DNA from: Mycobacterium sp. 3519A
GTDB taxonomy: Bacteria; Actinomycetota; Actinomycetes; Mycobacteriales; Mycobacteriaceae
Direction of reading: 5' to 3'
NCBI RefSeq assembly: GCF_900240945.1
Contig: NZ_OESG01000013.1
Span: forward strand, 372,001-436,000
DNA: 64,000 nt
The stretch's first letter is position 1. Each line of letters begins with the position of its first letter. The position numbers and the translations under genes are program-made. Below the pieces are notes generated by a model. That model was not told the origin of the DNA. It worked only from the letters and a program-made list of their open reading frames with translations, and did no database searches. Positions 54,139 to 64,000 of this stretch are shown here, piece after piece.

Positions 54139-54766
54139 GTACGTCCGGCGAACCGGAGTGGTAGGTCACCACGTTGTTGACGCCCGACGCGGTGATCTTG
54201 TCGGACGAGTCGAGCGTGACCTTGTTCTGCATCCCGGACACCGTGAGCGTCGTGCAGTGGCCGGTGATCGTCACGGTGTTGCCCATACCGCTGACGGTCA
54301 CCGGGTTGTCGTTGCATTCCAGCGTCTTGTTCTCGCCCATGCCTGAGACGCTGAGTTGCTCACCGGGCGGCGCCGCGGTCGGACGCGAAGGCATGTTCGG
54401 TGCCGACGGCACGTCGATGCTCGGGATCGTGACACCGGGGAAACTCGGGATCGAACTCGTCGACTTCTGCACGATGAACCATCCGACGCCGCCCGCGATG
54501 ATCATGAACACCACGGCCGCGACCCCGAACACGATCCACGGGATACCTGCCGACGGCCTCCGCGGGGGCGGCGACCACGGCGCGCCGTAGCCGGGCTGCT
54601 GATACGGCCCCTGCGCCTGCGGCGGCATCGGCGGCAGCGGCGGTGGCAGGTAGCCCTCGTTGGGCGCGGTGTACCCCGTCGTGCCCAACTCCGTCGCCCG
54701 CGCGGTATCGGCGAGCGGTTGCTCGAGTGCCCTGATCCGAGCCTCGGGATCGTCCTGTGGCTCCAT
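54104..54766 (-). CDS. DUF3060-family membrane-anchored protein
   Basis: A 220-residue protein: a Pro/Tyr/Gly-rich cytoplasmic N-terminus (PPPLPPMPPQ), one transmembrane helix (about residues 76-97, IPWIVFGVAAVVFMIIAGGV), a Ser/Pro linker and a C-terminal repeat domain of short beta units (VSGMGENKTLEC, VSGMGNTVTIT, VSGMQNKVTLD, ASGVNNVVTY). The repeated SGMxNxVT pattern is DUF3060, found in mycobacterial envelope proteins. Function unknown. Confidence 0.85.
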   Translation of the reverse strand: MEPQDDPEARIRALEQPLADTARATELGTTGYTAPNEGYLPPPLPPMPPQAQGPYQQPGYGAPWSPPPRRPSAGIPWIVFGVAAVVFMIIAGGVGWFIVQKSTSSIPSFPGVTIPSIDVPSAPNMPSRPTAAPPGEQLSVSGMGENKTLECNDNPVTVSGMGNTVTITGHCTTLTVSGMQNKVTLDSSDKITASGVNNVVTYHSGSPDVLNSGANQVQQG

Positions 54767-54791
54767 GCGCAGATGGTGCCATGTCCCGCAG

Positions 54792-57551
54792 CTAATTGAG
54801 TACGTATTCGAGTTGGCTGCGCGAAGTGATTTCGAGCTTGGTGAAGACCTTGCGCAGGTGGTACTGCACGGTCTTGGAGCTGATGAACAGACGGGTGGCA
54901 ATTTCGGGGTTGGACAGGCCCTCCCGTGCCAGCCTTGCGACCTGAACCTCCTGAGCGGTCAATTCCGGCGTCGTAATGACGGCGGTGCGCTTACGCAGCG
55001 TCTCACCGGTGGCCAGCAGCTCGCGGTTGGCCCGCTCGGCGAAGGCCGCCATTCCGATCGACTCGAACATCTGGTGCGCGGTGCGCAGCTGCTCGCGGGC
55101 GTCGACGCGCCGCCGTTCACGGCGCAGCCATTCGCCGTAGATCAGATGCGCTCGCGCGAGCTCCGTCCGCACCCGAGCCCTGCCGAATCGCGTGATCGCC
55201 TCTGCATACAGGTTTTCAGCCTCGTCACCGTCGGCCAGCAGAGCCCGCGACCGGGCTTCGACTCCGAGCGCCCAATCCGTGCCACTGGCTTCGGTCATCT
55301 CCACGAGCCAGCGCAGTGTCTCAGAGGCCGCCGCCAACCTCCCGTTGCGGACCGCCGCCTCGATCTGTTCGGCCGCCGCCCAGTTTGCGACGCCCGGATA
55401 CCGGACGTCCGGATACTCCTGGTGATACAGCGCCTGCTCCGCGGCGGCCATCGCCCCGGTGTAGTCGCCGAGGCCGTTGAGCAGCACGGCTCTTGTCCAC
55501 TCGGCGACCGCTATCCCGATGCCCTCCCCACGATTTGGAACCTCGAGCGCGGTTTCGTTGATCAGCGCGAACGCTTCGGTCTCGTCGCCACGCAGCGCCG
55601 CTAGTCGCATCGCGGCGTAGGGCGCGAGGTTGCCGCCCGTCGCCTCTGTCACCGCCTTCTGTTCGTCTACGAGCACCGCGGCGGCTGCGAGGTCACCTGC
55701 GAACAGCAGCATCATGGCGCGGGTGCTCAGCGCCAGGGGGAGTTCGCTCAATGCGCCGCTCGCTCGAGCGAGTTCGAGGTAGCGAACCGACAGCACCTCC
55801 CAGTGCTCGTCGTCCCACAAGTGCAGGGCCGCGAGGTTGATCAGCCACATCCAACGCAGCTCTTCGTCCGGTGTCATGTCGTCGCCGAAGGTGATGAGCG
55901 CGGCGCGAAGGTCATCGACCGCCGCCGGGTAGCCCGTGACGAAGTTCGCTGAGAGGCCGTCGAGTAGGCGGTCGGTCGACCGCGGTGGATGTGCAGGCGC
56001 TGGCGCGTTGGCGGCGGCCTGTGCCACCTCGGTGACGTGACCGCCCTGTGTCGCGAGCCGCCCGGCGAATGCGGCGGCGTTGATCGCGTCCAGGTAGGTC
56101 TGGCGGGCGAGGCGGGCGTCGATCGGCTCGAATCGCGTTGCGGCCCTTAGCAACAGCAGAGGCGCATCGCCGCCGCGGTGTGTCGCGAATGCGAGTGCGC
56201 CGCGCAGCAGGTCGATGCCGGCCTGTTGGGCTTCGTCCAGCGGGCCGCTCTCGGCCATGGCCAGCAGTTCCGTTGTCGCGTCGAACGCACCGGCCTGAAA
56301 CTTCGTGCTGGCGGCGGCCAGCGCGCGCCCTGCGCGGTGTGCCGGGTCGAGGGTCAGCATGGCGGCGCGTTCCAGGAACGCGGCGGCGGCGGCCAGTCCG
56401 CCGCGGGCACCCGCCTGTTCGGCGGAGCGCTCCAGTGCAGCGGCGATTTCTTCGTCGAACCCGGGGCTGGCTTCGGCCATGTGCCACACCCGTCGGTCGG
56501 GATCGACTGCGGGATCGGTTACTTCGCCGAGTGCGCCGTGTGCGATCCGGCGATCCTCCAGCGGCGCGGACCAATAGGCCACCGCGCGTGCCAACGGATG
56601 CCGGAACCGAATGCGCGTGCCGATTTCGGCGATGCCTGCCTCCGTTGCGGGATCGGCTGCTGCGGTCGCGATGCCGATGCGTGTCGCTGCCCGCCATACC
56701 AGGCCGGCGTCTCCTGTCGGGTCGGCCGCGGCGAGTGTGAGGAGGCGCTGGGTGTCGGCTGGAAGCTCGGCGATGCGCCGCCGGAAGTTCTCCTCGACCG
56801 CGCCGGACAGCGGCTCGGCGGAAGGCACGTTGAAGCCGCCGGCCAGATCTGCGGGCGAAAGTCCCCGTGGGAGTTCCAACAGCGCAAGCGGATTGCCCCG
56901 CGTCTCCGCGATGATCTGATCGCGCACCCGCGTGTCGATCGGGCCACGAATGGCCCCCTTCAACAGTTCCCGCGACTCATGCTCGGCGAGCCCCTCGATG
57001 AGGAGCCCCGGCAGATTTGCGAGTTCGTCACCGGGTACCCGAGTCGCGAAGATCATGCCAACCGACTCCGCGCCGAGCCGGCGCGCGACGAATGCGAGCA
57101 CCTGCGCCGAGGCCCGGTCCAACCACTGCTGATCGTCGATCAGGCACAGCAGCGGTTGCTCTTCCGATACCGCCGAAAGCAGCCCGAGAACAGAAAGGCC
57201 GATCAGGAACTGATCGGGCGCGGGTCCCGCACTCATTCCGAATGCGATGTGCAGCGCTTCTCGCTGCGGGGACGGCACGTGATCGAGCCGATTCAGCATC
57301 GGCGCGCACAGTTGATGTATGCCCGCGAACGGCAGCTCCATTTCCGACTCGACGCCCGACGTGCGCACCACTCGGCAGTCCGGCACCCGGGCGGACAGGC
57401 TCTCGACGAGTGCGGTCTTGCCGACTCCGGCCTCGCCGTAGATGACCAGCACGCGGCTTTCTCCGGTCCGGACCGCGGCAACCAGTTGATCGAGCACCCG
57501 GCTCTCGTCGCTGCGGCCGGTCAGCTTCGATGCCGAGCTGGCGTTCGACAT
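54792..57551 (-). CDS. Large ATP-binding LuxR-family (LAL) regulator
   Basis: A 919-residue regulator. The AAA ATPase has Walker A IYGEAGVGKTAL (38-49) and Walker B LLCLIDDQQWLD; a long helical, TPR-like region follows (about 300-840), then a LuxR helix-turn-helix in the last 65 residues (LTAQEVQVARLAREGLSNPE, KTVQYHLRKVFTKL). The ATG at 57551 removes a longer, uncharacteristic N-terminus. It is divergent from the hemocyanin-like gene with 122 bases between starts and may control it. The ligand is unknown. Confidence 0.92.
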   Translation of the reverse strand: MSNASSASKLTGRSDESRVLDQLVAAVRTGESRVLVIYGEAGVGKTALVESLSARVPDCRVVRTSGVESEMELPFAGIHQLCAPMLNRLDHVPSPQREALHIAFGMSAGPAPDQFLIGLSVLGLLSAVSEEQPLLCLIDDQQWLDRASAQVLAFVARRLGAESVGMIFATRVPGDELANLPGLLIEGLAEHESRELLKGAIRGPIDTRVRDQIIAETRGNPLALLELPRGLSPADLAGGFNVPSAEPLSGAVEENFRRRIAELPADTQRLLTLAAADPTGDAGLVWRAATRIGIATAAADPATEAGIAEIGTRIRFRHPLARAVAYWSAPLEDRRIAHGALGEVTDPAVDPDRRVWHMAEASPGFDEEIAAALERSAEQAGARGGLAAAAAFLERAAMLTLDPAHRAGRALAAASTKFQAGAFDATTELLAMAESGPLDEAQQAGIDLLRGALAFATHRGGDAPLLLLRAATRFEPIDARLARQTYLDAINAAAFAGRLATQGGHVTEVAQAAANAPAPAHPPRSTDRLLDGLSANFVTGYPAAVDDLRAALITFGDDMTPDEELRWMWLINLAALHLWDDEHWEVLSVRYLELARASGALSELPLALSTRAMMLLFAGDLAAAAVLVDEQKAVTEATGGNLAPYAAMRLAALRGDETEAFALINETALEVPNRGEGIGIAVAEWTRAVLLNGLGDYTGAMAAAEQALYHQEYPDVRYPGVANWAAAEQIEAAVRNGRLAAASETLRWLVEMTEASGTDWALGVEARSRALLADGDEAENLYAEAITRFGRARVRTELARAHLIYGEWLRRERRRVDAREQLRTAHQMFESIGMAAFAERANRELLATGETLRKRTAVITTPELTAQEVQVARLAREGLSNPEIATRLFISSKTVQYHLRKVFTKLEITSRSQLEYVLN

Positions 57552-57673
57552 GAAAGACGACCGTAGTGGAGCGTTGAGCGCGGCGCCTTTCGATTTGCGG
57601 ATTCGCGGTGTGTGGCCAAATTCCTGTGATCTCATTGATTTGTCAAACGACCTTGGGGTTTGGGGGAACACCG

Positions 57674-59782
57674 ATGGCGACACTGACCGAACTTCGCGAC
57701 AGGGGCGCGGAGTTGTTCACCGAATTGATGACGGTCCAGGAACCCGGGCATGCTCCGCCGCCCATTCACCTTGACGGACAGCGTTTCTCGTGGTTCGACG
57801 CGCAGCAGGGCGTCGACGCCAGCCTGCTCGCGTTGCGGTTGAGCGCCGCCGCCGCCACCCGATCCGGCGAGACGGCGGGACTTTCCGCCGCGCTCGCCGT
57901 CGTCGACGAGGAACGCGCGCAGCACGACCCGGAACTGGTCCGCCAGGGCTTCGCGCTGTTCGTCACGCACAACGACCGTGGGCGCCGACTCTTCAAACCC
58001 CGCGTCGTGCAAGTCGCGCCCGGCATGTTCACCGCGCCGACCGCCAAGCGGATCGGGCGGCGGCTGTCCATCGGCGGCCTGTCACCCGACCTCGACTACT
58101 GGCGCGAAGACATGCTCGCCAACGAACACCACCAGCACTGGCATGAGGTCTACCCGTGGACGGGCCGCCCGCCGGAATCCTTCCCGCAGTGGGTGCAGAC
58201 GGTCACCAACGCCGAAAAGGCACGGCTGCTTGGCACCATCGCGCCCGGCGTCAACTGGGCCGCCCAGTTGCAGAACGCCAGCCCGACACAGGTCGCCCAA
58301 TTCTTCGTCAACGGACTCAACGGGCAGGGCCGCCGCCGCCTGATCAACGCGGCGTTCGCCGAACCGCCGACGTTTCCTCGTGCGCTGTACCGCAAGCTGT
58401 TCCGGCTCAACGATCGTCACGGCGAGTTGTTTCTCTACATGCACCGGCAGATGCTGGCACGCTACGACGCCGAACTGCTCTCGCACGGCAAGCAGCGGGT
58501 GCAGGCCTTTACCTCGAACCAGTGGCCGGGCCCGATACCCGAGGGATACGACCCGGAGGGCCTACGCGACCAACAGGGGGTGCTGTTCACCACGCGCAAG
58601 CAGAACAAGACCCTGTCCGCGTTCTGGCGCAACCGCCTCGCGTCGTTGGCGCAGGGTGTCGACGACGTGTTGAGCAGCGGGGCGATTCCCGGTGCCGACC
58701 CGTCGGAACCCGACGTCGGAATCGCGATCTCGCCGCTCGGCGAGTTCATCGAAATGGGGATCCACAACAACGGACACGGTGCGCTTGGCGAGCTGTCCGA
58801 ACCGATCCCGCCAGGTCAGCTCGGGCAGAACCTGCCCAACGGGGTGATGAACAACCCGCTCGGGGCCATCCGCGATCAGGTGTTCTGGCGCTGGCACAAG
58901 CTGATCGACGACCTCGCCGAACGGTGGCAGTCGACACAAGCGCCAGAGGATTTCAGCGACGGACCCGCGGTGCTGATCCGCGACGGGGCCGCGCCGTGGG
59001 CCAGCCCAGACATCATCCTCGTACGGACCTCCGATCTCCCGGCCAATCAGAGCGCCGCGCAACGCCAACAGCTCGGCGAGCGGTTGTTCGGCGGTGCCAA
59101 ATGGGACACCGACTTCACCGAGGCGGCCGCGCAATCCGGCAACGTGTCACTGAGCACGACAGGCGAATTGGTCACCCTCATCGCCACGGCCAACGTCGCG
59201 GGCAGGCCCAACCCGGTCAAATTCCTCACCCATGAACCCTTCGTGTACTACATCCGTGTCGAGAACACCAAGAACCAACCGGTCGCGGTGACCGCGCGGA
59301 TCTTCCTGGTGCCGAACGCGTTCGAGGCCGATCGGACCGCGTGGATCGAGATGGACAAGTTCACTGCGACACTGGCCGCGCGGCAGAAGGCGGTGTTGTA
59401 CCGGCCGGACACCGAGAGCGCGGTGATCAAACGCAAGGCCGAAACCTCGCCGACGGCGATCGAGAATCGGCCGCCAGGGGGACGTTCGTCGTACTGCGAC
59501 TGCGGCTGGCCCTACACCCTGCTGCTGCCGAAAGGCACGGCTGCGCCGGGTATGCCATGCCGGCTGCTGGTGATGTTCACCGACGCGACGCTCGACAACG
59601 TCGGCCAACCCGGTGAGTGCGGATCGATGAGCTTCTGCGGAGCCCGCGACCGCTATCCCGACAACCGGGAGATGGGCTATCCGTTCGCCCGGCCGTTCGG
59701 CGGCGGAGCCAACGCGATTCGCGACACCTTGCTCGGCCTGCCCAATGCGTCGGGCAGAACAGTGCACATCCGCCAGGCCTAG
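57674..59782 (+). CDS. Hemocyanin/prophenoloxidase-like type-3 copper protein (arthropod type)
   Basis: A 702-residue protein, close to insect prophenoloxidase length. The ATG at 57674 has GGGGGAA upstream; no signal peptide, as in insect PPO. An N domain (1-150) is followed by the copper domain: Cu-A ligands His153 and His157 (EHHQHWHEVYP) and His257 (ELFLYMHRQML); Cu-B His364, His368 (GIHNNGHGALG) and His408 (RDQVFWRWHKLID). The C-terminal Ig-like domain ends with CDCGWPYTLLLPKG and CGARDRYPDNREMGYPF, the thioester-like GCGWP and terminal signatures of arthropod prophenoloxidase. A roughly 70-residue insertion lies between Cu-A His 2 and His 3. It probably binds oxygen or oxidises phenols. 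Confidence 0.9.
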   Translation: MATLTELRDRGAELFTELMTVQEPGHAPPPIHLDGQRFSWFDAQQGVDASLLALRLSAAAATRSGETAGLSAALAVVDEERAQHDPELVRQGFALFVTHNDRGRRLFKPRVVQVAPGMFTAPTAKRIGRRLSIGGLSPDLDYWREDMLANEHHQHWHEVYPWTGRPPESFPQWVQTVTNAEKARLLGTIAPGVNWAAQLQNASPTQVAQFFVNGLNGQGRRRLINAAFAEPPTFPRALYRKLFRLNDRHGELFLYMHRQMLARYDAELLSHGKQRVQAFTSNQWPGPIPEGYDPEGLRDQQGVLFTTRKQNKTLSAFWRNRLASLAQGVDDVLSSGAIPGADPSEPDVGIAISPLGEFIEMGIHNNGHGALGELSEPIPPGQLGQNLPNGVMNNPLGAIRDQVFWRWHKLIDDLAERWQSTQAPEDFSDGPAVLIRDGAAPWASPDIILVRTSDLPANQSAAQRQQLGERLFGGAKWDTDFTEAAAQSGNVSLSTTGELVTLIATANVAGRPNPVKFLTHEPFVYYIRVENTKNQPVAVTARIFLVPNAFEADRTAWIEMDKFTATLAARQKAVLYRPDTESAVIKRKAETSPTAIENRPPGGRSSYCDCGWPYTLLLPKGTAAPGMPCRLLVMFTDATLDNVGQPGECGSMSFCGARDRYPDNREMGYPFARPFGGGANAIRDTLLGLPNASGRTVHIRQA

Positions 59783-61101
59783 TGAATCGGCACCGCCACG
59801 TCGACCCACGGCTTCTTGCCGGTACGCCGTTGCGTGCTGAAGTGGTCGGAGAACTGTTCGAGCGCCTCCCGTAGCGGACCCCGCGGCACCTCCGTACCCC
59901 GCCTGGCGTCGCCGTGCTTCCCTGACTTCGTCGACATGACCGACACCAGCCGGTTCGCAGTGGCGTGCGCCGCATCCTGCTTGTGGCTGAAGCCATTCCA
60001 CAGCGTCTTGGGGGTGGCGTTCAGGCTGCCGTGGTGGCCCACCTTGTAGACGTTGGTGGCGGCAAGGCGCTCGCGAATCGCCTTGTGGTTGGGCGCATCG
60101 AAGAGGGCGTAGCTCCAATTCTCGATCTGGGCGTCGCCGGGGAACAGCAGCGTGGTCCCGCCGATCTGCATCAGCAGGATCAGGCTGGTGTTGTTCAGCA
60201 CCTCGTCCATGATGCGCAGGATGCCCAGCATGTCGTCGGCGTAGGCGCGGGTGATCTGGGGCACCAGCCACTTGGCCGCCTGCGGGATGTCGGCCCGCAC
60301 GGCGTTCGGAAACAGCGGCGCCAGATTCGCACCGGGCCCCGTCGTGTCGGTGGTTCCCGCCGCGGCCAGCCGACCCCAGGCGGCGGCGAGGTGCCAGAAC
60401 TCGTCGGCATTCGTGCGGGCCTGGTGGGCGATGGCTGGCGCCTGCCTGAGGGTGGGCGGCCCCAGCACATCGATCGTCACTCCGGGCAGCAGGCCCCGGA
60501 CGTCGATCCGGTCACCGAACTTGGCGTACTTCGGTTTACGGACACCCATCGTCATCAGCCGCTTGACTGCGGCCTCGTTCTTGATGTTGGTCTCACCGAG
60601 GAAGTTGAGGCGGTCGGCGACGGTGGGCGGGAAGCCCGCGAGGCCAGCCAGGCGCAGCCCCTCCACGCTGGCGCCGGCCGCGAACGCGTGCATGTTCGTC
60701 AACGTCCGCGCCAGCGCCTTGTGGTCGGTCAGCGCTGCCCGGCCCCTCGGTTGCACGGCGTCGGTTTCCAGGTCGGGGTCCTCGGTCCACGGCTGCACGA
60801 CGAGTTCGGGGTGCAGATCCTCGATGATCGGCCCGGTCACCGAATCACCGAAACCGCTGATGTGGTCGGCGTGCCGGTGCGTGGCCACCACCACGTCGAG
60901 CTTGCCGCCCGACTCTGCTGCGATGTCCTTGGCGATCACCTCCATGTGGTTCTTGACCCGCGAGTCGGGCAGCTTCGTGCTGCCGAAGTCGAACAGCACG
61001 CTTCGCACCGGCCGCTCACCCTCGTCGTAGGTGAGGGTCAACAGCAGGCAGTCGCCGAACCCGACGTTGTACGCGCGCAACCGCGCGCCGGTGACCTTCA
61101 T
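59779..61101 (-). CDS. Metallo-beta-lactamase-fold hydrolase (ComEC-type MBL domain)
   Basis: A 440-residue soluble MBL-fold protein. The first metal motif is THRHADH (His75, His77, Asp79, His80); a later Asp is in LLFPGDAQ and a terminal His in VGHHGSLN, as in the hydrolase domain of ComEC/Rec2. The opening RAYNVGFGDCLLLT is the typical first strand of that group. No membrane segment or signal. Its ATG overlaps the stop of the metalloprotease gene upstream, so the two are co-translated. The stop overlaps that of the convergent hemocyanin-like gene by three bases. Target (nucleotide, nucleic acid or small molecule) unknown. Confidence 0.85.
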   Translation of the reverse strand: MKVTGARLRAYNVGFGDCLLLTLTYDEGERPVRSVLFDFGSTKLPDSRVKNHMEVIAKDIAAESGGKLDVVVATHRHADHISGFGDSVTGPIIEDLHPELVVQPWTEDPDLETDAVQPRGRAALTDHKALARTLTNMHAFAAGASVEGLRLAGLAGFPPTVADRLNFLGETNIKNEAAVKRLMTMGVRKPKYAKFGDRIDVRGLLPGVTIDVLGPPTLRQAPAIAHQARTNADEFWHLAAAWGRLAAAGTTDTTGPGANLAPLFPNAVRADIPQAAKWLVPQITRAYADDMLGILRIMDEVLNNTSLILLMQIGGTTLLFPGDAQIENWSYALFDAPNHKAIRERLAATNVYKVGHHGSLNATPKTLWNGFSHKQDAAHATANRLVSVMSTKSGKHGDARRGTEVPRGPLREALEQFSDHFSTQRRTGKKPWVDVAVPIH

Positions 61102-62849
61102 CGGTTCCACCCCTCGCTGGCGCGGCGTTCCTTGGCTTCCAACTCGACGTCGGGGTCCACTGTGCCGGCCGCCAGCGCCCGCTGACGGTGGAACGAGGCC
61201 AGCGCCGATGACCGGTTGACCGCGAAATACCCTCGGTCCCAGAGATATTGGAGGCGGCGCTCCCACGCCTGCTTTTCCGCCCGCGACGCGGGCGGCGGAA
61301 GTCTGTTGGACACTTCGAACTTGAGCTCGCCGTACTCGTCGAGAATGAACGTCGAACCGCCCTCCAGAACCACTTCCTGGTCGTCCGGCATCCCGGCAGG
61401 CTTCCTGATCCGGTATTGCGGCCACAATTCGGCGGCGGTGACCTTCAGGTACTGGACGAGTTCGACGACGGTCTCACGGATCTGGAACCCGTCGTCGGGT
61501 GAGACACGCACACAGGGGCGCACGCTCGTGATGCGGGTCAACGCGTCGGTGTCGAGTTTGAGATCCATGCGGTTGTTCCAGATGTGCCGGAACATCTCCG
61601 TCGGATCGGACTGCAGCGCACTCAGGTGTGAACCTTCCCGCACCAGCTTCAGCGCCGCCGGTGGCCAGTAGCCGCCGTCCTCGCGGGATTTCGGCGCAAT
61701 TCCGTACTGCGCCATCTCCGTCAGCAGGTGCCCGCGGAGGTGGTAACGGCTGTCGTCGCTGCGCACCTCGTTGTCGGCGGTGAGCATCGCGCTGAGGAAG
61801 TCACTGAAATCGATATGGATGGGCGGGGTGTAGTCGATGGCGCGGATCACCATCGTCAAAAGGACGTCCGCGATATCGGCGCCCTGTTCGGCGACAAGAT
61901 TGACGTCCACCAGGCCCTCTGGGTCGTCGTCGCCGAGTTGTCCGATGCGGGCCACCCACGCCGACAGGAACGCGCGCATCACCGCCGCAACCAGCACCTC
62001 ACCGCGTCGGTGCTCCTCCTCGAACTCGAGGCGGTCGAGGATGTGCGGATTCGGGTCGATCTCGACAGACCGGCGCAAGGCGTTGACGCGGGCATCGGCG
62101 GCTTCGGTACGCATCTCCTCCGCGAGCCCGAGTAGCGCCGAGCGCTTGAGCTCGCTGAAGGTGAGTTTCGATTTACGCACCAGACCTGGTGGTGCAGTGC
62201 GGTCCTGCTCTTCGAGCGGAGCGATCAGGTTCTGCACCAGTTCCGGCAACCCGAATACCGACAACAGCGCGACGATGTCCGCGAACGCCTCATGCAGCGC
62301 CGCCTGATCCGGCGACGACGGCGCCATGAACTTGTCGCGCAGCCCGTCCAGCAGAGCATGCGCGGTCTCGTGCGCGACGATGTCGTGCGACAGGCACAGG
62401 AAGGTCGGTTCACTGCGGCGGATGTAGCCGAACAGCAGCGCCTCCATCTCGGGTGAGTAGAACGCGTTGGCTTCCTCGAATGCGTGCGGCACGATCTTGA
62501 GCTGATGGCCGTAGATGCCCCAGCCGACCCGGCGCCCGAGTGCGAACTCGAATCGCAGCAGCGTGCGCATCGCGATCGCATACGCGTTCATCGCGTGGTA
62601 GCCGGGGTCGGCGAGCAGCCCCTTCCTGCCGCCCTTCGGCACCGTGACGGCCTCGGCGTTCTTCAGCGGCGGCGGCGCCTCGTACATCGTGTTCGTCGAC
62701 GCGTCGTAGTCGACGACGAACAGGGAGTAGCCCATCGGACCGCGGGCCAGGTCCTCGAGCGGAAGGCTGACCGTCGCGGTCAAGACCCTGCCGTTGCGGT
62801 CGCGCACACTCGGATCCTGGGCAACGATCTCGAATTGTCGCTTTTGCAT
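61098..62849 (-). CDS. Thermolysin-like (gluzincin) zinc metalloprotease
   Basis: A 583-residue protein. The zinc motif HETAH is at His160-His164, preceded by EANAFYSPEMEALLFGYI and followed by HEAFADI with Glu187 as the likely third ligand, the M4/thermolysin arrangement (NAFWxG, HExTH, E-A-x-x-D). The long C-terminal part (210-583) is not recognised. No signal peptide was seen; the ATG at 62849 is preferred over a TTG 15 codons upstream. It overlaps the MBL gene by four bases and faces the prophenoloxidase-like gene, making it a candidate processing protease; this is inference. Confidence 0.82.
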   Translation of the reverse strand: MQKRQFEIVAQDPSVRDRNGRVLTATVSLPLEDLARGPMGYSLFVVDYDASTNTMYEAPPPLKNAEAVTVPKGGRKGLLADPGYHAMNAYAIAMRTLLRFEFALGRRVGWGIYGHQLKIVPHAFEEANAFYSPEMEALLFGYIRRSEPTFLCLSHDIVAHETAHALLDGLRDKFMAPSSPDQAALHEAFADIVALLSVFGLPELVQNLIAPLEEQDRTAPPGLVRKSKLTFSELKRSALLGLAEEMRTEAADARVNALRRSVEIDPNPHILDRLEFEEEHRRGEVLVAAVMRAFLSAWVARIGQLGDDDPEGLVDVNLVAEQGADIADVLLTMVIRAIDYTPPIHIDFSDFLSAMLTADNEVRSDDSRYHLRGHLLTEMAQYGIAPKSREDGGYWPPAALKLVREGSHLSALQSDPTEMFRHIWNNRMDLKLDTDALTRITSVRPCVRVSPDDGFQIRETVVELVQYLKVTAAELWPQYRIRKPAGMPDDQEVVLEGGSTFILDEYGELKFEVSNRLPPPASRAEKQAWERRLQYLWDRGYFAVNRSSALASFHRQRALAAGTVDPDVELEAKERRASEGWNR

Positions 62850-63010
62850 AGCGAAATAGTCGCACTTCCGTGGACCCACCGAGCCGATTCTCAAAGCGTT
62901 GCGGAGCGGGACAATACGACACGTCCGTCGTACCCGTAAGCCTCACTCAGCTAACCAGCAACACGCTGCGTCGTTGCCTACGAATTTGTGACCAAAGCAT
63001 GACAAGGGGT

Positions 63011-64000
63011 ATGAGCGGGCCGCCGAAGTGGTACCCAGGAAATGTGGTGGCTCCAGGTTTCACGGCCATCGGCAGTGGTCCGGCAGGGTTGAGCGCGGCG
63101 GAGACGTTCCGCAGCAAGCATCCCAACATTCCCGTGCGGATCCTGACCAACGACCCCGCGCTGCCGTACGCCAAGCCGCCGCTGAGCAAGGAATACCTCT
63201 GCGGCCGCGAGGCCAAGCTCGACCTGCACAGCGCGGGCTGGTTCGTTCGCAACAACGTCGAACTGATTCGCGGCGTCACCGTCGACCACATCGATCTGGC
63301 CAGGCAGGAGGTCGTCACCGAGGGCGGCCGCCGCTACCCGTATTGGCATCTGATGCTCGGCTGCGGCGCCAACGCCGTCCCGTTGCGCATCCCCGGCGGT
63401 GAGACCGCGCTGTCGCTGCGCTCGTTCGCCGACGCCGTGATCCTCCGAATGGCGGCCCGCAGCGCCGATTCCGCCGTGGTGATCGGCGGCGGGCTGATCG
63501 GCTGCGAGGCCGCGGCGTGCCTGGCCGAACAAGGTGTGCCGACGACGATGGTGGCCGCCGAGCAGGTGCCATTGCAGCGCCGGTTCGGCGAGCAGGTCGG
63601 CGAGCGGGTCGCAAAGATCCTGTCCGACAACGGTGTTCGGTTCCTCGGCTCGACGACAGTAACCCGCATCGACGACGCCGAAGTCCACCTCGACAGCGGC
63701 GGCACCCTCGACGGCGACGTCGTCGTCTCCGCCACCGGGGTGCGACCCGATCCGCACCTGGCCGTCGACGCCGGACTCGAAACGTATGACGGCCGCATCG
63801 TCGTCGACGAACACATGCACACCTCGGCGCGCAACGTGTACGCGGCAGGCGATGTCGCGCTGGCCTACAACGTCACTGCGGGACGCCGCATCCGCGCCGA
63901 GCACTGGCGCGATGCCGCGCAGCAGGGCCGCGTCGCCGGGCTGACCGCGGCGGGCCATCCCGCCGCGTGGAGCAAGGTCCCCGAATTCTCGTGCACCATC
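63011..64000 (+). CDS. FAD-dependent NAD(P)H oxidoreductase (ferredoxin/rubredoxin reductase-like), partial
   Basis: The first 330 codons; the gene continues past the window end. The FAD-binding motif is AIGSGPAGLSAA near residue 19, followed by YAKPPLSKEYL typical of ferredoxin/putidaredoxin reductases, the NAD motif VVIGGGLIGCEAA and the second FAD motif VYAAGDVA. No CxxC redox disulphide beside the first motif, which fits the rubredoxin/ferredoxin reductase group. The ATG at 63011 is in frame; GTGs at 63044 and 63047 are alternatives. Divergent from the metalloprotease gene. Confidence 0.85.
   Translation, partial: MSGPPKWYPGNVVAPGFTAIGSGPAGLSAAETFRSKHPNIPVRILTNDPALPYAKPPLSKEYLCGREAKLDLHSAGWFVRNNVELIRGVTVDHIDLARQEVVTEGGRRYPYWHLMLGCGANAVPLRIPGGETALSLRSFADAVILRMAARSADSAVVIGGGLIGCEAAACLAEQGVPTTMVAAEQVPLQRRFGEQVGERVAKILSDNGVRFLGSTTVTRIDDAEVHLDSGGTLDGDVVVSATGVRPDPHLAVDAGLETYDGRIVVDEHMHTSARNVYAAGDVALAYNVTAGRRIRAEHWRDAAQQGRVAGLTAAGHPAAWSKVPEFSCTI

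Follow-up and report, generated by a model that had tools for sequence, protein, structure and literature searches.

How does a mycobacterium come to carry a gene resembling those of arthropod hemocyanins and prophenoloxidases, and what could its product do in a bacterial cell? The question is raised by a 64,000-nt stretch of Mycobacterium sp. 3519A (contig NZ_OESG01000013.1, positions 372,001 to 436,000 of the forward strand), here called the window, which contains such a gene. The data showed that the encoded protein is a full-length relative of arthropod hemocyanin and prophenoloxidase (PPO), with the copper core and the immunoglobulin-like (Ig-like) C-terminal domain, and that, as judged from sequence, it belongs to a broad bacterial family. 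It adds a member to a known superfamily, one that in bacteria has a new genetic setting. The reading that we tentatively favor, with a confidence slightly short of even, is that this bacterial member of the superfamily is a likely cytosolic phenoloxidase proenzyme, predicted to be activated by a protease and encoded in an apparently inserted defense-type cassette. The gene and its predicted functional sites are as follows:

57674..59782, plus strand: hemocyanin/prophenoloxidase-like protein, beta-subclass type-3 copper protein; ATG start, 702 aa
57794..57796, plus strand: F41, counterpart of the Phe called the "placeholder" in arthropod hemocyanins and PPO (FSxF motif)
58130..58144, plus strand: predicted CuA ligands H153 and H157 (EHHQHWH)
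58442..58444, plus strand: predicted CuA ligand H257 (YMHRQM)
58751..58753, plus strand: E360, in the column of the conserved Glu that precedes HisB1 (from the alignment)
58763..58777, plus strand: predicted CuB ligands H364 and H368 (HNNGH)
58895..58897, plus strand: predicted CuB ligand H408 (FWRWH)
59501..59686, plus strand: signature of the C-terminal Ig-like domain, CGWP and CGARDRYPDNREMGYPF (Pfam and motif check)

The coordinates and length of the open reading frame (ORF), the positions and motifs of the six histidines, and the C-terminal signature (CGWP at residues 610–613, CGARDRYPDNREMGYPF at residues 655–671) had all been given correctly in the original prediction. In Pfam the protein matched Hemocyanin_C with 84.2 bits (cut-off 26.4), Hemocyanin_M with 80 bits (cut-off 20.8) and Tyrosinase with a score of 25.9 (cut-off 22.6). 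The third domain expected in the original prediction, Hemocyanin_N, gave no match at E values up to 1, and its profile (PF03722) was found in none of the 240 rows listed from two protein database searches. All arthropods in the PMC11579526 set have this profile. The predicted fold, in agreement with what had been proposed, contained the copper core and the Ig-like C-domain, and its alignment with Limulus hemocyanin spanned residues 4–702, including the N-terminal region. Because Hemocyanin_N is unmatched though the fold aligns, the protein was placed in the superfamily and not among the arthropod hemocyanins or PPO proper. The type-3 copper subclasses differ in the spacing of the CuA ligands (PMC3658974), and the presence of the Ig-like C-terminal domain sets the window protein apart from the alpha-subclass bacterial tyrosinases, which have no such domain.

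To describe the conservation of the active site, relatives from several sources were compared. The window protein had 187 relatives in the protein database at E ≤ 0.001, and a profile built from 13 distant bacterial members had 363; 120 of each were listed. Scanning genome contigs for two peptide patterns yielded 24 loci, many of them metagenome bins. The motif, alignment and hydropathy counts were confined to proteins of at least 580 aa, which left 120 rows from the window-protein search (window included), 118 from the profile search, 22 derived from the loci, and 106 of the arthropod group; two loci (L005 and L019) were left out of the alignment counts. All six histidines were kept in 120/120, 117/118 and 21/22 of the bacterial rows, respectively (258 of 260 together), and in 105 of the 106 arthropod-group rows. 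Because they are kept across the bacterial rows, the motif match is not a chance one. F41 is the second Phe of the sequence FSWF, and a Phe was aligned with it in 116/120, 115/118 and 22/22 bacterial rows and in 105/106 arthropod-group rows, while the motif F[ST]x[FY] itself was found in 109/120 and 108/118 rows of the two bacterial searches and in 99/106 of the arthropod group. This Phe is the placeholder residue of the beta-subclass (PMC3658974), with a corresponding role in arthropod hemocyanins and PPO (PMC4700666). A Glu was aligned with E360 in all 260 bacterial rows and in 105/106 arthropod-group rows. The hydroxylase and oxidase activity of AgPPO8 requires its Glu E364 (PMC4700666), and the conserved Glu is taken to be the counterpart of this residue and the predicted catalytic base. 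In the clade of the window the Glu and H364 are closer together by about 15 alignment columns, so the exact position of the Glu is uncertain.

These comparisons bear on two other possible functions. One is that, like true hemocyanins, the protein serves to bind or store oxygen, reversibly and without enzyme turnover. The best matches of the window protein in both sequence and fold were chelicerate hemocyanins (Limulus subunit II and scorpion AA6), and the placeholder Phe is kept, which is consistent with such a role; nevertheless, we regard it as improbable. The other is non-redox catalysis with a bound metal, as in AsqI, a fungal cyclopenase that has lost site B (His346, Leu350 and Tyr387 stand at the ligand places) and works with zinc at site A (PMC6053404). 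AsqI lacks two of the three site-B ligands, whereas H364, H368 and H408 are intact in the window protein and nearly all bacterial rows keep the six histidines, which leaves this explanation little chance. As a separate observation, an Acidimicrobiia member (L016:7093-8958) has LHHRHC at the six histidine columns, so that three ligands would be lost if the alignment is right, as in copper-free relatives.

The distribution of the family was then considered. The named organisms among the matches listed were bacterial, most of the listed rows having no name, and the titles of the 24 loci covered Actinomycetota, Planctomycetota, Chloroflexota, Acidobacteriota, Cyanobacteriota, Bacillota, Bacteroidota and Pseudomonadota, which are eight phyla. 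The gene is rare, being present in 3 of 248 genomes of the genus, its own included, and in 1 of 396 in a sample of the phylum, which was its own genome. A survey of lineages found it in 1/244 genomes of the cyanobacterial phylum and in 2/298 and 1/200 genomes of two families, all at loci already in the set, and in none of the 39 and 66 genomes of two actinobacterial classes. When three family members were compared by tblastn with plasmids, only two conjugative Rhizobium indicum plasmids matched. Carriage by phages was also considered and dropped, as no phage record was matched by one family member and no viral contig was found in one profile scan.

The phylogeny was determined with IQ-TREE from 59 rows and 641 columns, as an unrooted tree of 10 arthropod-group and 49 bacterial rows, with fungal and sponge sequences left out. 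For the trees, the listed rows were sampled at even intervals; this one did not include L005, L019, L022, L002 and L016, and a further tree did not include L005, L019, L022, L002, L009 and L016. The 10 arthropod-group rows formed one side of a branch with 100/100 support. The window protein was placed among relatives of 44%–90% identity, in a clade of 19 rows (100/100) whose basal members are L008 (Planctomycetota) and L009 (Chloroflexi) and whose other members are actinobacterial. These data bear on the idea that an arthropod gene was recently transferred into the mycobacterium, which the strong resemblance to arthropod proteins could suggest. Because the arthropod rows are one separate clade and the window protein lies amid bacterial relatives, such a transfer does not fit, and we consider it very improbable. 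Hence, the phylogeny that had been proposed as a check came out against a single transferred animal gene, while the description of the protein as a full-length arthropod relative stood. The hemocyanin of M. stellerae (L007) groups with Pseudonocardiales, and a clade of it with the window protein was rejected by the approximately unbiased (AU) test (p-AU 1e-5), which is why the two mycobacterial genes are read as two separate acquisitions. The tree is unrooted, and arthropods as the sister group of the window clade were compatible with the AU test (p-AU 0.415), so it gives no deep direction between bacteria and animals.

To understand the genetic setting of the gene, its neighbors in the window were analyzed. 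Neither the cassette that they form nor the recurring protease partners described further below had been part of the original prediction. The neighbors are:

54778..63048, no strand: apparently inserted cassette, approximate extent (from the comparison with the flanks in G027)
54792..57683, minus strand: large LuxR-type regulator with an AAA_16 ATPase domain, divergent from the hemocyanin gene (AAA_16 67.9 bits, GerE 56 bits)
59779..61101, minus strand: metallo-beta-lactamase-fold (MBL) protein, 440 aa, with HRHADH and HHGS motifs; resembles the LmuA and Avs1a defense MBLs
61098..62894, minus strand: predicted gluzincin metalloprotease, 598 aa (HETAH ... HEAFAD; from the motif)

The stop codon of the MBL gene overlaps that of the hemocyanin gene on the opposite strand (CTAG), and its start overlaps the end of the HExxH protein gene by ATGA. 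The longest LuxR-type ORF and the hemocyanin ORF overlap at their starts, the LuxR-type start being probably set too far upstream. The MBL protein matched LmuA with 51 bits and Avs1a with 30 bits in PADLOC, and 6A-MBL and Avs1a with 35 bits each in NCBIfam, where the cut-offs are 220 and 420; PADLOC scans of the cassette proteins gave no further system component. The HExxH protein had a weak thermolysin match at the same motif (E 0.07), and homologs of it adjoin the hemocyanin in L021 and L020. This HExxH family (window, L002, L021 and L020) has almost no Pfam signal, and it is perhaps an undescribed thermolysin-like family. The same four genes are present in Mycobacterium sp. ACS1612 (L002), with 82%, 93%, 93% and 97% amino acid identity, the lowest value being that of the LuxR-type protein. 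In the relative G027 (L038) the homologs of 54681–54777 and 63049–63954 are separated by 83 bp. Because both flanks lie so close together there, the cassette is apparently an insertion of about 8.3 kb; the alternative is that it was lost in G027. When 61 genomes, namely its own and those of 60 relatives, were searched at the DNA level, the matches listed covered the flanks and LuxR-like stretches, and within 57674–62894 none of them came from a genome other than its own.

The neighbors of the hemocyanin genes were then compared across bacteria. The loci contained 24 distinct genes, with the window and L002 counted once, and also L005 and L021, which are complementary parts from the same bin. 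A protease adjoins the hemocyanin or is fused to it in 10 of the 24. Clear matches were an M4 thermolysin in L007 (134.8 bits), caspases in L011 (40.7 bits) and in L020 (34.4 bits, together with a gluzincin), an adjacent Trypsin_2 protein in L018 (71.5 bits, with a second one, carrying TPR-S, further up), an S8 protease in L029 (by annotation; PADLOC subtilase 74 bits), and a contig-end ORF of 1156 aa in the Chloroflexi locus (L009:7-3474), in which Peptidase_S8 (154.6 bits, with subtilase D, H and S motifs) is fused to the hemocyanin M and C domains. Motif-level or weak matches were the gluzincin accompanied by an MBL protein in window/L002 and L021, two CHAT-like proteins in L008 (21.4 and 15.1 bits, cut-off 24), and a trypsin-like protein in L017 (15.6 bits, cut-off 27.6), which has H and GDSG motifs and is joined to Endonuclease_NS.

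For a control, 30 genes of the same loci, each three or more positions away and taken from rough script-made gene calls, were scanned at E ≤ 1e-4, and the near set consisted of 37 genes (36 by Pfam, and the S8 protease of L029 by PADLOC and annotation) scanned at E 0.01–1. Near genes left unscanned include the one upstream in L004 and some in L010, L014, L015, L019, L022 and L024. Clear proteases were found in 6 of the 37 near genes and in none of the 30 control genes (one-sided Fisher p 0.023); a GATase domain that matched Peptidase_C26 and a single carboxypeptidase-regulatory-like domain were not counted in the control. Adding five weaker proteases gave 11/37 versus 0/30 (p 0.0007), which is an unfair comparison because the stricter control threshold could show no such weak matches. 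Defense-type MBL proteins were found near four genes, with LmuA scores of 51 bits in the window, 58 in L021, 148 in L029 and 227 in L020, and a partial one (26 bits) in L003.

How such a locus could work is suggested by precedents. A partner trypsin or caspase switches on the MBL-fold pro-nuclease of Hachiman, AVAST and Canu (PMC12799240), couplings of a nuclease with trypsin and S8 proteases have also been described (PMC7159879), and arthropod prophenoloxidase is activated through a proteolytic cascade (PMC3983073). From these precedents taken together we infer a proenzyme that would be opened by a protease and then make quinones. The active site would bind two coppers and oxidize phenols to quinones, and the placeholder Phe of the N-domain would hold the cytosolic proenzyme shut; compatible with such a location, the window protein had no signal-like N-terminus by crude hydropathy, and an N-terminal hydrophobic stretch above the set limit was seen in 0/120 and 0/118 bacterial rows. 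The partner protease would activate it by cleavage or by displacing the domain with the placeholder Phe. Quinones made from cellular phenols could damage the infected cell or what invades it, with the MBL protein, a likely nuclease, acting alongside, and the LuxR-type ATPase may govern expression or sensing. Of this scheme, what the data show is the pairing with proteases, the predicted fold and the conserved site; the rest is predicted.

Several points weigh against this reading. The protease in the window is assigned from its motif and from weak profile matches (Pfam M4 E 0.033, hhalign probability 17.8%, besides the thermolysin match), and an AF2 model of it built from four sequences reached a pLDDT of only 35.6. 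The hemocyanin, in which no site of cleavage was found, is convergent and not co-directional with the MBL–protease pair and had no PADLOC match, and the MBL protein scores low. The left flank in ACS1612 differs, the match beginning at 54791, and the empty site was seen in one of the six relatives fetched, while the other five (L039–L043) matched only to the right of 63054. No protease was found alongside 14 of the 24 genes, some of these being on short contigs or having unscanned neighbors, and the control genes were hand-picked, not random, and scanned more strictly, so that only the comparison of clear proteases is fair. Several acidobacterial and Bacteroidota hemocyanins adjoin a MerC-like protein, and L011 has both this protein and a protease.

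Some of these points would also suit a constitutive, tyrosinase-like phenol or catechol oxidase of metabolism, which hydroxylates or detoxifies phenols or serves biosynthesis, the protease neighbors being hitch-hikers in crowded genomic islands. The intact histidines and conserved Glu, the frequent "tyrosinase" in source annotations, the genes with no protease, and metabolic neighbors such as an amine oxidase (L023) and a pyridoxal-phosphate decarboxylase (L025) are in line with it. On the other hand, it leaves unexplained the proteases of unrelated folds, the protease fusion and the MBL and defense context, and it is not favored by the lack of a signal-like N-terminus. We consider it doubtful, though a real possibility. 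The protease-activated proenzyme could be generalized to a bacterial prophenoloxidase activation system, in which a hemocyanin-fold proenzyme and an exchangeable protease, paired or fused, reside in mobile defense loci; this extension is speculative, and on present data rather unlikely.

Other genes near the hemocyanins were also of defense type, namely Shedu (L029), LmuB (L025), Vsr with a methyltransferase (L023), a ThiF/E1-type protein with a mad3-like ATPase (L006), and a TIR-endonuclease (L018). The Lamassu LmuB of L025 (15164-18283, 845 bits) lies about 5 kb from the Pontibacter hemocyanin. Directly 3′ of the hemocyanin gene, three loci encode proteins of 108–121 aa with an FSEY/FSPY motif (L010:6640-7005, L011:9678-10004 and L015:3887-4240); the motif resembles the hemocyanin N-domain, and they could be free-standing N-domain plugs. 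The MerC-like membrane protein, with a PKCPxC motif, is encoded at L014:5182-5886, L015:1484-1906, L025:10291-10953, L011:7442-7783 and L022:4295-4840; it matched Pfam MerC below the cut-off in L014, L015 and L025, had no match in L011, and was recognized by eye in L022. Beside the acidobacterial and Bacteroidota hemocyanins, it is a possible copper supplier. Related proteins near the hemocyanin in a cyanobacterium (L017:4664-6181) and in Bacteroidota (L025:11938-13188) presumably resemble VioB-type ferritin-like enzymes.

The family is known to annotators, as the labels "hemocyanin-like" and "tyrosinase family protein" are already used for its members in databases. Among the open-access titles listed, none was found to be a study of a hemocyanin-family protein from bacteria or of how it pairs with proteases, subscription papers being outside the search; the text of PMC7159879 contains neither "tyrosinase" nor "copper", and that of PMC8195603 does not contain "hemocyanin". 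As far as these titles show, the family is apparently unstudied, in agreement with the original prediction, which knew of no characterized bacterial member. The occurrence of the arthropod-type (beta) subclass in loci of eight bacterial phyla reopens the origin of hemocyanin and prophenoloxidase, and the pairing with proteases makes a sequence curiosity a testable mechanism. If bacteria do have such a prophenoloxidase activation system, the protease and prophenoloxidase core of arthropod melanization would join the animal immune modules that have counterparts in bacteria, and the oxidation of phenols would be a new effector chemistry in anti-phage defense.

The window protein was also compared with known systems. 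Chelicerate hemocyanins, which are oxygen carriers in hemolymph, have the Hemocyanin_N profile, unlike the window protein. The bacterial alpha-subclass tyrosinases, of which Streptomyces MelC2 is an example, have in common with it the chemistry of the type-3 copper site. AsqI (5yy2) has the same fold outside animals, but it is Zn-dependent with site B lost, while the bacterial protein keeps both sites. Arthropod PPO (Manduca sexta 3hhs and AgPPO8 4yzw) is 27%–28% identical to the window protein in structural alignment, and the differences are the unmatched Hemocyanin_N profile, partner proteases of several folds in bacteria, and a function that is predicted. With the nuclease–protease pairs of AVAST, Hachiman and Canu, the loci have in common an MBL-fold protein and a protease, a variable protease family, and accessory regions (PMC12799240). 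AVAST type 1 and Canu have the MBL nuclease beside a trypsin or caspase, whereas the protease of the window is a predicted gluzincin; L020 has MBL, caspase and gluzincin in one locus. What the window has in addition to these pairs is a hemocyanin-fold partner, which is possibly activated.
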